64,000 nucleotides of DNA from Nocardioides ochotonae (GTDB lineage: Bacteria > Actinomycetota > Actinomycetes > Propionibacteriales > Nocardioidaceae): positions 3,521,001 to 3,585,000 of the forward strand of contig NZ_CP061769.1 of assembly GCF_011420305.2 (NCBI RefSeq). Reading direction: 5' to 3'. A model generated the notes under the pieces. The model did not search any database. It was not told the origin of the DNA and saw only the letters and a list, made by a program, of their open reading frames with translations. Below, in pieces: positions 23,462 to 53,077 of the stretch (positions within the stretch are counted from its first letter, which is position 1; each line of letters starts with the position of its first letter). Made by a program: the position numbers and the translations under genes.

Positions 23462-23473
23462 GCCCCATCCTAC

Positions 23474-23489: not shown

Positions 23490-23518
23490 CGACAAGAGTC
23501 TTTCCACCACGGTCTCGA

Positions 23519-23815
23519 TGTCATGCCTCAAGACATCGGTGACGGTTCTGTGTCAGGACATCGGTGACACAACTGGGGTGCTTGGTGGTGACACTTCTGG
23601 CTCTCTGGTGCGGTGCCTGCCGCCAATGAGCCTGTCGATCCTCGTGTCCGTCTCGCGATCGTCCAGTGGCCTGAGGATGCGCCACGAGGCGCGTGACCAC
23701 GTTCTGCGAAGAGCATCAGATCTCGCGTAAGACGTTCTACGCGAGCCGTGCCCGGGCGCGTGAGGACGGCGCAGCTGCGGCACTCGAGCCCCGCAGCAGC
23801 AGAACTGTCATGTAA
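23519..23815 (+). pseudogene. Decayed IS481-type transposase 5' remnant
   Basis: Two fragments of one protein are readable on the plus strand. NEPVDPRVRLAIVQWPEDAP is in the frame that ends at a TGA (23694-23696). VTTFCEEHQISRKTFYASRA, continuing to a stop at 23813-23815, is in another frame starting at 23693. Restoring a single G near 23693 joins them into one N-terminal helix-turn-helix region like that of IS481/IS3-class transposases. The catalytic DDE domain is absent. Upstream, GACATCGGTGAC occurs twice (23532-23543 and 23557-23568), which may be the remains of an element end. It marks a past insertion beside the DUF222 gene. Confidence 0.68.
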
Positions 23816-23867
23816 GTCCTGAGACCTCACACCACCGGAGGTCTCCGACCTTCGCGGCCATGGTCTC

Positions 23868-23898
23868 GACGAGCTCGACCAACCGGGTCGAGCTCGTC
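23868..23898. repeat. 13-bp-stem intergenic hairpin
   Basis: GACGAGCTCGACC, loop AACCG, then GGTCGAGCTCGTC. It lies between the IS remnant and the amidase terminator. The sequence resembles GC-rich dispersed intergenic repeats that I recall from Nocardioides-type genomes, but I cannot test this here. Confidence 0.5.
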
Positions 23899-50141: not shown

Positions 50142-51443
50142 TCAGTCGTCGGGTGGGTGCGCGGTGACGAGCCGGGTCGTGGCGTGCTCCTTGATCAGGT
50201 GGAGCCCGTGGGGCGAGCGCCAGAGGTAGATGGCGGCGTCGGTCTTGTCGTAGGTCCAAGCGGTGTGGGTCTTGGCCCGGTGATGTCTGCGACAGAGCGG
50301 GGCCAGGTTGCAGGAACACGTCGGGCCACCGTCACCGTGGGCGGTGACGTGGTCGGTGTCGCAGCGGCGCGCCGGACGTTCGCACCACGGGAAGGCGCAC
50401 ATCGGTTGGGTCAGGCGAGTCTGGTCGACGAGCCGGTCCGGCACTGCGTAGGCGTCGGTGTGGTGGTGGGCCTCGAGGTCGATGACCGGCTTGATGACCA
50501 CCTGGGTCTCGGATCCGCACCAGTCGCGGACCTGGTCGGTCGACACGATCGATCGGGTCTCCTCCACGTGGGCGATCCCGGCCTCGTCACGGGAGATCGC
50601 GGCGTGGGAGAGGTGGACGTGGATGACGACCTGTCGCGCCTTCACCACCGACGCTGCACCCTCACCTGCCTCCGCCCGGAGGTCGAACGCGACCTGGCGC
50701 CGGGCCAGCTCACCGGCCGCCATCGAGCGACGCACGTCCACCGACTCGGTGACCCCGAGCGCGGCGAGCTCCTCGGCCCCCTGGGAGATCGCGGTGTCGA
50801 GGTCGATCGCGTCGGCAAGGTCGAGGACCCCCTCGACGTGGACGATGCCCTCGTGGGCGGCTTCGCGGGTGTGGACGTCGAAGCGTCGACCGTCGGCCGC
50901 CTCGCGGCGCTCCTTCTCCGCGCCCTCGGGGTCGAAGGCGACGCGGGCCTGGTCGACGAGGCGCTCGATCCCGGCCCAGCTGATCTTCCCCACGAATGCG
51001 GCGAGCCGGCGGTCCACGAAGTCGGCGCCCTCCATCGGCAGGGAGGTGGTCAGCTGCGCGAGCCGCCGGGCCTTCCACAGCGGCACCTTGCCGGCGCGGA
51101 CCAGGTTCCAGGTGCGCTTGAGCCGGTGCGCCAGCTCGAGTGCGTCTCCGACGAGCGAGCGGGCGGAGTCGGTGGACATGCCCAGGGCGGCACCGAACTC
51201 CATCGGAGCGAACTCCGCCACCAACGGGGCACCTTCGCCGGCCAGCGGCACCGCGAGCTCGCCGAACATCAGTCCGGTCGTCGGCGCCGCGTCGGCGACC
51301 GACTCCTCCGGGTGCATCGACGCCCACACCAGGGCCGCCTCCAAGACGTCGATCTCCGCCCGCTGGGCCACAGCCCGACGGGCCGTCGCGAACGCCAGCA
51401 CAGCGGCTGGGGAATCGCAGTCGGGGAGTTCGGAGGAGGCCAT
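50142..51443 (-). CDS. DUF222 / HNH endonuclease protein (13E12-type), copy 2
   Basis: Also 433 residues, matching copy 1 from PDCDSPAAVLAFA to the C-terminal RLVTAHPPDD with scattered substitutions only. The HNH motif is CAFPWCERPARRCDTDHV and CNLAPLCRRHHRAKTH. The ATG at 51443 lies 13 nt from an SOS-type palindrome identical to that of copy 1. Similarity extends through the start region and the box but fades beyond it, so the duplicated unit looks like box plus gene. DNA-damage induction is inferred. Confidence 0.9.
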   Translation of the reverse strand: MASSELPDCDSPAAVLAFATARRAVAQRAEIDVLEAALVWASMHPEESVADAAPTTGLMFGELAVPLAGEGAPLVAEFAPMEFGAALGMSTDSARSLVGDALELAHRLKRTWNLVRAGKVPLWKARRLAQLTTSLPMEGADFVDRRLAAFVGKISWAGIERLVDQARVAFDPEGAEKERREAADGRRFDVHTREAAHEGIVHVEGVLDLADAIDLDTAISQGAEELAALGVTESVDVRRSMAAGELARRQVAFDLRAEAGEGAASVVKARQVVIHVHLSHAAISRDEAGIAHVEETRSIVSTDQVRDWCGSETQVVIKPVIDLEAHHHTDAYAVPDRLVDQTRLTQPMCAFPWCERPARRCDTDHVTAHGDGGPTCSCNLAPLCRRHHRAKTHTAWTYDKTDAAIYLWRSPHGLHLIKEHATTRLVTAHPPDD

Positions 51444-51455
51444 GCCTCATCTTAG

Positions 51456-51471
51456 TCGAACGCACGTTCGA
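51456..51471. promoter_or_regulatory. LexA/SOS-type box upstream of DUF222-HNH copy 2
   Basis: TCGAACGCACGTTCGA, identical in sequence and in distance to the start codon (13 nt) to the site at 23474-23489. Confidence 0.82.
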
Positions 51472-51584
51472 GATGAAGGGTGTGACGGAATCTCTAGGTA
51501 AAGACTTCGGGCCGCGGCGGCGCGCCCTGAGGTCGGATCTGCCACCGTCGGGTTCCCCACTGGTCGGCGCGAGATACTGCACGC

Positions 51585-52016
51585 ATGGGATACGAGCGCA
51601 TCTGGGAGCGCCTCGTCGAGCACCTCGACGAATTGGGCAACGCCCGAGAGGTGCCAGGTGGCATCGAGGTCACCATCGAGCGCCTTCCAGGCCGCTCGCG
51701 CACCGTCGAGGTGGTGCTGAGCCCCGAGGACTGGGACGACTACCTCAGCACCATGTACGGCGACGGGGACCCGACAGCGACCACCATCAAGGAACGAGTG
51801 CTCGGGACCCCGGAGGGCGTCCGCTTTCTCGTCTACGACGGGACCTACGACTGGACCCCTTCCGAGACACGAGAACTTCCCCCCGAGGAGCCTCAGGACC
51901 TCGAACCCGGGCCAGGACACTGGGTCACCACCGATGACGACGGCAACGTCACCAGCCGGTTCGCCGACTGGGATGGGTCCGCTGGCGACCCTCCGCCGTC
52001 GTCTCAGCGCGGGTAG
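51585..52016 (+). CDS. Small acidic protein of unknown function
   Basis: A 143-residue, strongly acidic soluble protein beginning MGYERIWERLVEHLDELGNA. The middle has alternating strand-like segments (GGIEVTIERLPGRSRTVEVV, VRFLVYDGTYDWTPS). The tail is Pro/Asp/Ser-rich. GATACT and 6 nt precede the ATG. GC is lower than in the neighbours, which suggests transfer. Its last 13 bases overlap the convergent dinB gene. It sits directly upstream of, and divergent from, the second DUF222 gene; a functional link is speculative. I do not recognise the family. Confidence 0.7.
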   Translation: MGYERIWERLVEHLDELGNAREVPGGIEVTIERLPGRSRTVEVVLSPEDWDDYLSTMYGDGDPTATTIKERVLGTPEGVRFLVYDGTYDWTPSETRELPPEEPQDLEPGPGHWVTTDDDGNVTSRFADWDGSAGDPPPSSQRG

Positions 52017-53077
52017 CCGCCCGGCGGCGGCACCATCTCCAGACGCACCCCGAGGAGCCGCACCGCACGCTCGTGGTCGACGCGCTCCAACAGGCTGACG
52101 GCGGCATCGGCGAGCGCGGCGGGGTCGTGGGTGGGCTCGGGCAGGGTGAGGCTGCGGGTCACGGTGATGAACGGCGCGAACCGGATCTTCAGCCCGACCC
52201 TCGCCGCCGGGCGCCCCTCGGCGTCGATGTCGGCGACCACCCGGCGGGTGAGGTCGCGCACCTCCTGCGCGATCCGCTCCCAGTCCTCGAGGTCGGTCTG
52301 GAAGGTGGTCTCGCGGCCGTGCGCGCGGGGCACCCACGGGGTCGCGTCGACCGGGCTGCCGTCCACCCCGCGCCCCAGCCTGCCCAGCCACGGCCCGGTC
52401 TTGGGCCCGAAGGCGGCGGCGAGCTCCGCGGGGTCCGCCGCCGCGAGGTCGGCGACGGTCACGAGCCCGAGGTCGGCGAGCTTGCGCGCGGTCTTGCGCC
52501 CGACGCCCCACAGCGCGTCGGTGGGCCGCTCCCCCATCACCTCCCGCCAGGTCTCGGCGGTGAGCCGGAAGCTGCCGCGCGGCTTGCCCATGTCGGTGGC
52601 GATCTTGGCGCGCAGCTTGTTGTCCCCGGTGCCGACCGAGCAGTGCAGCCCGGTGGCCTCCAGCACGGCGGCGCGGGCCAGGTCGGCGACCGGCTGCGGG
52701 TCGCTGTCCAGCGACGCCGGCGGGTCCGCGGCCACGAACGCCTCGTCCCAGCCCAGCACCTCCACGACGACCGGTGCGCCGTCCCACCTCAGCTCGCGCA
52801 GGGTCGCCATCACCTGCTCGGAGGCGGCGTCGTACGCCGGGTGGTCGACGGGGAGGAACACCGCCTCGGGGCAGCGGCGCGCGGCCACGCGCAACGGCAT
52901 CCCGGAGCCGACCCCGAACGCGCGCGCCTCGTACGACGCGGTGGCGACCACGCCACGCTCGGTCGGGTCGCCCCGCCCGCCGACGACCACGGGTCGCCCC
53001 GCGAGCTCGGGACGGCGCTGCACCTCGACCGCGGCGATGAACTGGTCGAGGTCGACGTGCAGCACCCATCCGGTCAT
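52004..53077 (-). CDS. dinB: DNA polymerase IV (Y family)
   Basis: A 357-residue translesion polymerase. The first metal-binding aspartates are in VLHVDLDQFIAAVEVQ, the second acidic pair in VLGWDEAFVA, and the polymerase palm continues with SVGTGDNKLRAKIATDMGKP. The little-finger domain follows at about residues 240-350. WGVGRKTARKLADLGL is the helix-hairpin-helix. No LexA-type palindrome is seen before its start, so it is probably expressed from upstream, 9 nt after the FUSC-like gene stop. It ends 13 bp inside the small convergent gene. Confidence 0.94.
   Translation of the reverse strand: MTGWVLHVDLDQFIAAVEVQRRPELAGRPVVVGGRGDPTERGVVATASYEARAFGVGSGMPLRVAARRCPEAVFLPVDHPAYDAASEQVMATLRELRWDGAPVVVEVLGWDEAFVAADPPASLDSDPQPVADLARAAVLEATGLHCSVGTGDNKLRAKIATDMGKPRGSFRLTAETWREVMGERPTDALWGVGRKTARKLADLGLVTVADLAAADPAELAAAFGPKTGPWLGRLGRGVDGSPVDATPWVPRAHGRETTFQTDLEDWERIAQEVRDLTRRVVADIDAEGRPAARVGLKIRFAPFITVTRSLTLPEPTHDPAALADAAVSLLERVDHERAVRLLGVRLEMVPPPGGYPR

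Follow-up and report, generated by a model that had tools for sequence, protein, structure and literature searches.

DUF222-HNH genes of Nocardioides ochotonae as putative members of a dispersed, damage-inducible cassette family

Introduction

DUF222-HNH genes form a very common multi-copy family in the Actinomycetes. The 13E12 genes of the tubercle bacillus belong to it, and 13E12 copies in M. tuberculosis serve as a phage attachment site. In the REPtron of proteobacteria (REP plus RAYT), a gene is flanked by a short intergenic palindrome in inverted orientation, and this palindrome is also found alone. Free-standing HNH homing endonucleases are encoded by small nuclease genes that are copied, with sites that are unoccupied in relatives. 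According to the available extracts of the papers, the LexA regulon of M. tuberculosis includes some 13E12 genes, which are described as having mobile-element traits that are active upon damage (PMC5005354, quoting Davis 2002), REP13E12/HNH/DUF222 is named a repetitive element (PMC10589994), and a function in mismatch repair was proposed for 13E12 HNH genes (PMC4181829). SOS control and apparent mobility of some M. tuberculosis 13E12 genes are already known. The literature found for the term DUF222, of incomplete coverage, did not contain the term in its titles or abstracts, and no tested function for a DUF222-HNH protein was found in the literature searched.

Here, we analyzed two such genes in a 64,000-nucleotide stretch (the window) that represents positions 3,521,001-3,585,000 of the single-contig 4.26-Mb genome of Nocardioides ochotonae (G000), and compared them with the remaining copies in this genome, in its sister species and in more distant relatives. 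The two genes had been described in an earlier note as near-identical copies, each with its own SOS box.

Results

Two copies with a shared LexA box in unrelated contexts

The features of the two copies are as follows, with coordinates of the window.

50142..51443, minus strand: copy B (the finding), DUF222-HNH gene of 433 aa, from the ORF, Pfam DUF222 and HNH residues
22160..23461, minus strand: copy A, DUF222-HNH gene of 433 aa, from the ORF
51456..51471, unstranded: LexA (SOS) box TCGAACGTGCGTTCGA of copy B, from a TCGAAC-type search with the consensus as quoted in an extract of PMC4181829
23474..23489, unstranded: LexA box TCGAACGTGCGTTCGA of copy A, identical to the copy B box, from the same TCGAAC-type search
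51449..51454, minus strand: -10 TAAGAT of copy B, 5 nt before the ATG (leaderless transcript predicted), from position and the -10 census
51472..51477, minus strand: -35 position of copy B, TTCATC, with the LexA box in the -35/-10 spacer, from position and the -35 census
23490..23495, minus strand: -35 TTGTCG of copy A, from the -35 census
23467..23472, minus strand: -10 TAGGAT of copy A, from the -10 census
51497..51507, minus strand: AAGTCTTTACC element, class II 5' end of copy B, common to about 10 copies, from similarity to L002
22120..22144, minus strand: 3' tail hairpin CCCCGCC..GGCGGGG after the stop codon of copy A, conserved among paralogs and missing from copy B
23862..23880, minus strand: REP-like palindrome GGTCGAGCTCGTCGAGACC (gene strand), interpreted as the outer repeat at the left end of copy A, the sole match in the window

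Both ORFs run from an equivalent ATG and encode 433 residues, and the same 16-bp box precedes both, as the earlier note had stated. Other values given there needed correction: the box-to-ATG gap is 12 nt rather than 13 nt in both copies, the genes lie 28 kb rather than 27 kb apart from start to start, and the copies are less alike than near-identical, since the 1,326 nt that align without gaps are 87% identical in DNA and the proteins 89% identical. Throughout the 64 kb, a search for the TCGAAC-type box (up to 3 mismatches) returned only the copy A and copy B sites, with 0.00 expected from shuffles.

The alignment of the two copies starts with the first base of the 16-bp box and ends with the stop codon, and their flanks do not align beyond either point. 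The contexts are unrelated, as had been proposed: copy A neighbors NAD(P)H-hydrate dehydratase and amidase genes, and copy B neighbors glutamate-cysteine ligase and Y-family polymerase genes. Because the flanks cannot be aligned, the segmental duplication raised earlier as an alternative is ruled out. With copies that overwrite one another and, in many cases, mirrored palindromes at their borders (see below), the scattered genes resemble a poorly known type of mobile gene more than an ordinary duplication.

Several other observations were made around these copies. The Y-family (IMS) polymerase gene near copy B occupies positions 52004-53077. Similarity between copy B (L001) and L002 begins 37-38 nt upstream of the box, and AAGTCTTTACC(TTCGA) stands about 36 nt before the box, where about 10 copies have it in the place that the left palindrome would occupy. 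Between palindrome GGTCGAGCTCGTCGAGACC and the box of copy A lies sequence common to L007 (window 23532-23570; 94% over 157 nt), which we take to resemble an insertion-sequence end and which apparently separates the gene from the left palindrome. The 3' tail hairpin of copy A folded no better than shuffled sequence (z -1.2), and a role as a strong terminator was ruled out on this basis.

A chromosomal family of about 25-30 loci

A search of the genome with its own copy returned 40 matching stretches. Twenty-two are near-full-length copies (query residue 12 or lower to 431-432), two of which have an internal stop; beyond these, there are two long copies (L023, L024) and fragments. The copy count that the earlier note had called for is about 25-30 loci. 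The genome of the sister species (G018, taken as Nocardioides sp. zg-DK7169) has 41 matching stretches and roughly as many copies. In a sample of Nocardioides, 77 of 98 genomes matched at E 1e-60, and the copies listed for a genome tend toward like identity to the query. Among Actinomycetes, DUF222 exceeded the cut-off in 140 of the 197 genomes sampled (70 of 90 genera), many of them multi-copy.

None of 50,697 phage records matched (E 1e-8), one of 72,556 plasmid records did (E 1e-20), and viral contigs contained a single short match, to the HNH part only. On the phage and plasmid counts, carriage by these elements was rejected, and they also speak against the genes being passengers of an ordinary IS or another transposon acting in trans. 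This explanation draws on the presumed likeness to an IS end upstream of copy A and L007; however, that sequence is found at few copies and the unit contains no second gene, and we regard this explanation as extremely improbable.

Damage-type promoters precede most loci

All 55 of the copies scored in this genome and its sister carry a TCGAA-N6-TTCGA box, which lies exactly 12 nt before the ATGGC start in 52/55. The box is placed between a -35-like hexamer, mostly TTGTCN or TTGTTC, and a -10 that is mostly TAGAAT, TAGGAT or TAGACT. Given the 12-nt distance from box to ATGGC, the -10 ends about 5 nt before the ATG, and a leaderless mRNA is predicted. TCGAACGTGCGTTCGA fits the mycobacterial LexA consensus TCGAAC(N)4GTTCGA, as quoted in the available part of PMC4181829, and bound LexA would be expected to cover the -35/-10 spacer.

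Relatives without a LexA box mostly have TGTCRGTG, spaced from the -10 as in the RecA-NDp promoter. The consensus of this LexA-independent promoter, which is PafBC-controlled in mycobacteria, is given as tTGTCRgtg-8 nt-TannnT in an extract of PMC5656591. We scored both types with self-chosen limits of up to 1 mismatch for LexA and up to 2 for the PafBC type. When the best locus of each of 29 genomes was considered, 9/29 had the LexA type, 18/29 the PafBC type and 24/29 either (hand count), as compared with 1/300 and 2/300, respectively, in control shuffles. Among 74 loci of named relatives, 31 had the LexA type, 38 the PafBC type and 59 either, while control windows gave 0/73 and 2/73; 15 of the 74 loci are from the sister species, and subtraction of these leaves a damage-type promoter in 44 of 59. 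In 30 genomes across the class, the LexA type was found in 11, the PafBC type in 12 and either in 19, with 0 and 0 of 30 in controls; here the window was placed by the domain match, so that some promoters may fall outside it. In some relatives, the LexA-like sequence TCGAACACATGATCGA shares bases with the start codon, and part of it may be coding.

Window copies A and B are of the LexA type instead of the PafBC type. The concern that copies elsewhere might lack the box was partly justified: many relatives are without a LexA box, and most of those have the PafBC-type promoter. With one or the other promoter at most loci, damage control is an apparent constant of the family, and it looks as though this control is kept while the regulator switches. 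In four G014 copies (L113-L116), both the LexA box and a good PafBC motif are missing, and palindromes are absent nearby. We found no literature linking PafBC with 13E12, within incomplete coverage, and in an extract of PMC8151990 the genes that differ with RecA include five putative HNH endonucleases.

Borders of the unit and orientation of the palindromes

Alignment of flanks, which had been suggested as a check, located the borders of the unit. Similarity between paralogs starts at the -35/box, or further up where the 5' classes agree, and usually stops 40-57 nt past the stop codon, in the hairpin tail; complete pairs extend over this whole range, and the tail is missing from copy B and a few others. 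The earlier proposal that the similarity comprises box plus gene holds for the A/B alignment, which runs from box to stop, and other pairs add the -35 and the 3' tail.

Outside of the similarity, a palindrome is found beside otherwise unrelated flanks in about half of the copies. Its 19-nt core GGTCGAGCYTGTCGAGACC (up to 1 mismatch) has 22 sites in the genome; 15 are no more than 150 nt away from a DUF222 match and 1 is inside such a match, with 0.23 expected. At a self-chosen limit of 6 mismatches, for which random control windows gave 0 (2,000 windows drawn, the number before those adjoining the two copies were skipped), a 24-nt palindrome is present upstream of 28/53 copies of the two sister genomes in one orientation and of 1 in the other. 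Downstream, it is inverted in 18/53 and in the other orientation in 3. The upstream palindrome most often starts 44-47 nt ahead of the box, and the downstream one 55-59 nt beyond the stop. Both palindromes are kept in 11/53 copies, and copy B has neither. One orientation upstream and the inverse downstream would give the unit inverted-repeat-like ends.

Outside this species pair, the distances of the palindromes differ and their order is kept. In G087, the left repeat lies 235-243 nt upstream in 9/10 copies and the right repeat 2-12 nt past the matched end in 9/10; in G054, the left repeat is about 150 nt upstream in 4/5 copies. Copies in G037, G025 and G014 have no palindrome within 200 nt of the gene, and in G037 it is found further upstream in at least 4 of 9. 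For 56 loci in named relatives, the palindrome was upstream in the expected orientation in 9 and in the opposite orientation in 0, and far windows gave 0.

The palindrome is a general repeat of the genus. Its exact counts per genome, 0 to 123, do not track DUF222 numbers: at a strict cut-off, among the matches listed (up to 17 scored per genome), G043 has 123 palindromes and 1 DUF222 match and G017 has 0 palindromes and 12 DUF222 matches, and in G062 the palindrome is abundant away from the DUF222 gene. That palindrome number sets copy number across the genus was rejected, as no relation was visible by eye. The half-palindrome GCTCGACCAACGGA occurs in tandem arrays in the downstream flank of L020 and in L259.

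Old sites, unoccupied sites and gene conversion

By flank alignment, 24 of the 28 loci in this genome have a copy at the same place in the sister, and L008 makes this 25/28. The 24 include L005/L119, where the gene is inverted and the left flank alone is common to both genomes. Empty sites in relatives, which had been proposed as a test, are seen directly: the places of L007, L019 and L022 are unoccupied in the sister. With 25/28 sites common to the two species, most dispersal is old and movement rare.

In nine comparisons of occupied with unoccupied sites, no palindrome (up to 3 mismatches) was present within 250 nt of the junction, and one of the nine unoccupied sites had a match with 4 mismatches. 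Among the nine occupied counterparts, 6/9 copies kept a palindrome. The only clean unoccupied site is that of L019 as compared with L133, where a small interval divides two convergent genes from stop codon to stop codon; the L019 insert brings a palindrome on its 3' side, which has the minority orientation, and we saw no target duplication at this single site. The missing palindromes at unoccupied junctions favor palindromes that travel with the unit. Alternatively, the genes might home into pre-existing tail-to-tail pairs of palindromes, the palindrome being the target and not the end of the element. Many genomes have the palindrome without the gene, and L005 (G000:C1:4125158-4129453) and L119 (G018:C23:280377-285666), which share a left flank and have right flanks that do not match, hold the DUF222 gene in opposite orientations, each between inverted palindromes. 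Both observations suit homing, and unoccupied sites may have lost their palindrome; yet the nine unoccupied sites show, at best, the one weak match, and we consider homing of this kind decidedly unlikely. At L134 (G000:C1:4025000-4029000), two GTCGTTTGGTCCCCAACGACAAC-like palindromic repeats, at about 1610-1955, take the place of the copy that is present in the sister.

Among 17 positional pairs, the gene was less alike than its flanks in 17/17. The best paralog within this genome surpassed the positional partner in 15/17 pairs, a result for which the top value among 23 paralogs was taken, a maximum over numerous comparisons, and positional partners were sisters in the tree in 2/17. For example, L014 and its positional partner have flanks that are 95% alike and genes that are 80% alike, and the L014 gene is 96% identical to that of L015 in the same genome. 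The latter two are 97-100% identical over approximately the first 900 nt and 82-94% thereafter. Copy B and L002 reach 96-100% identity in a central stretch of 700 nt, and the parts of the gene to both sides of it show 79-89%. In 29/231 pairs, the longest identical run exceeded that in all 200 shuffles, which ignore uneven conservation along the gene. Judged by these alignments, the process is interlocus gene conversion of box, gene and 3' tail (or else fixed sites at which copies are replaced repeatedly), and it takes in copy B itself.

The unit of box plus gene proposed in the earlier note is, thus, supported as a converting unit, with the promoter and usually the 3' tail included. Of its suggestion of spread with a damage-responsive switch, the switch stands, as the LexA box travels with the converting unit (55/55 copies), and recent spread is not supported, as 25/28 sites are occupied in the sister. 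The ongoing process that is visible is gene conversion, not recent spread.

Among 190 pairs of 20 copies, from which two copies with internal stops were excluded, the median dN/dS was 0.20, indicating purifying selection. This value, the damage promoters, the old sites common to the sister species and the mismatch-repair proposal for 13E12 HNH genes in the available part of PMC4181829 all suit a host DNA-repair family, that is, an SOS/PafBC nuclease that multiplied long ago and was homogenized by RecA, with the palindromes as unrelated intergenic repeats. The main rival to our reading is this passive version, in which RecA recombines dispersed homologs and the nuclease has its role in repair; it explains conversion, for which nuclease action is then not needed. 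However, it leaves unexplained the roughly 25-30 copies at unrelated sites, the unoccupied sites in the sister species, and the position and orientation bias of the palindromes, and we consider it unlikely on the whole.

A predicted ParB/KorB-like domain joined to an HNH nuclease

The protein matches Pfam DUF222 with E 2.8e-10 (40.5 bits, cut-off 24.4) and Pfam HNH with 13.6 bits, under the cut-off of 21.4. The HNH catalytic and zinc residues C-x4-C, DH, N and C-x2-HH-x2-K are present in 22/22 copies listed. No transposase gene lies inside the unit, which has one gene with Pfam DUF222 and weak HNH matches only, and the Pfam search of the protein found no Y1 HUH tyrosine transposase domain.

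An AlphaFold model built with 56 sequences had a mean pLDDT of 84, and its C-terminal part matched the HNH of TagI, IscB and McrA with Z of about 7; a profile match to EcoKMcrA had E 0.003. The N-terminal 187 residues modelled alone reached pLDDT 90, with ParB, Spo0J, Noc and KorB in 11 of the best 12 rows (Z 5.1-6.8 over about 100 residues); structural Z values below 8 may reflect a common arrangement. Foldseek returned no match at E 0.001 or lower for either model (best N-terminal E 0.12), the N-terminal domain alone gave no sequence-level link to ParB, and the whole-protein profile gave weak matches only, e.g. Spo0J at E 0.043. With modest confidence, the models suggest a ParB/KorB-like HTH domain followed by an HNH nuclease. 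The DNA-binding domains of ParB, Spo0J, Noc and KorB bind palindromes, and a ParB-like fold would fit a palindrome-reading nuclease.

No PADLOC defence family matched at E 0.1, and a known defence system was ruled out accordingly. A damage-induced self-killing or anti-invader nuclease, multiplied through a benefit of dosage or diversity, would resemble the HNH nuclease MSMEG_1275, which kills M. smegmatis when overexpressed, as stated in an extract of PMC9416677 in which its DUF222 content is not given. Nevertheless, this explanation lacks a PADLOC match and does not predict palindromic ends, and it seems to us highly unlikely.

Discussion

Our main reading, to which we assign a probability of roughly 0.5, is that copies A and B are members of a family of chromosomal, damage-inducible nuclease cassettes of about 1.46 kb that are copied by nuclease action. 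The cassette would begin with palindrome CCGTTGGTCGAGCYTGTCGAGACC and continue with a leaderless promoter whose spacer contains the LexA box, the gene, a hairpin tail and the inverted palindrome, and the product would combine the predicted ParB/KorB-like DNA-binding domain with the C-terminal HNH nuclease. We propose that DNA damage turns the genes on via LexA, or PafBC in relatives, that the protein then cuts palindromic or homologous sites or sister cassettes, and that RecA repair copies one cassette over another and, rarely, into a new intergenic site. Copy B would be an old copy without recognizable palindromes. The multiplicity, damage-type promoters, borders, conversion between copies, oriented palindromes and unoccupied sites can be read directly in the DNA; we infer the nuclease-driven spread.

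If this reading holds, a nuclease gene is switched on just as recombination is able to copy it, and the REP-like palindromes of these genomes gain a candidate enzyme. Palindromic ends, two independent damage pathways and conversion would together make a nameless repeat a testable system. It is conceivable, albeit doubtful, that DUF222-HNH proteins in general drive undescribed actinobacterial mobile elements, in which the ParB-like domain reads a REP-type palindrome, HNH cuts, and SOS/PafBC-induced recombination copies the cassette; solo REP-like palindromes of actinobacteria would then be non-autonomous relatives. Without claiming priority, we regard as new here the orientation-specific palindromes, the PafBC-type promoters in relatives, and the ParB/KorB-like HTH plus HNH model.

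The Nocardioides genes resemble 13E12/REP13E12 of M. tuberculosis, as far as the extracts describe the latter, in being DUF222-HNH genes with several dispersed copies, some of which belong to the LexA regulon in M. tuberculosis and which carry LexA-type boxes in Nocardioides. On the Nocardioides side, we find about 25-30 copies, a LexA box in the spacer of a predicted leaderless promoter, measured conversion, apparent palindromic inverted ends, sites unoccupied in the sister and PafBC-type promoters in relatives, whereas the M. tuberculosis copies are known to us from descriptions. As in the REPtron, the gene stands, in some copies, between inverted palindromes that also occur alone, although the enzyme is DUF222-HNH and not a Y1 HUH transposase. 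Like free-standing HNH homing endonucleases, a small nuclease gene is the copied unit and relatives have unoccupied sites; unlike them, this family has many intergenic sites per genome, its own damage switch and apparent palindromic ends, and its cleavage is putative. Finally, the C-terminal HNH fold is shared with McrA, TagI and IscB (Z of about 7), from which the protein departs in its N-terminal part in these searches, with no modification-sensing domain reported.
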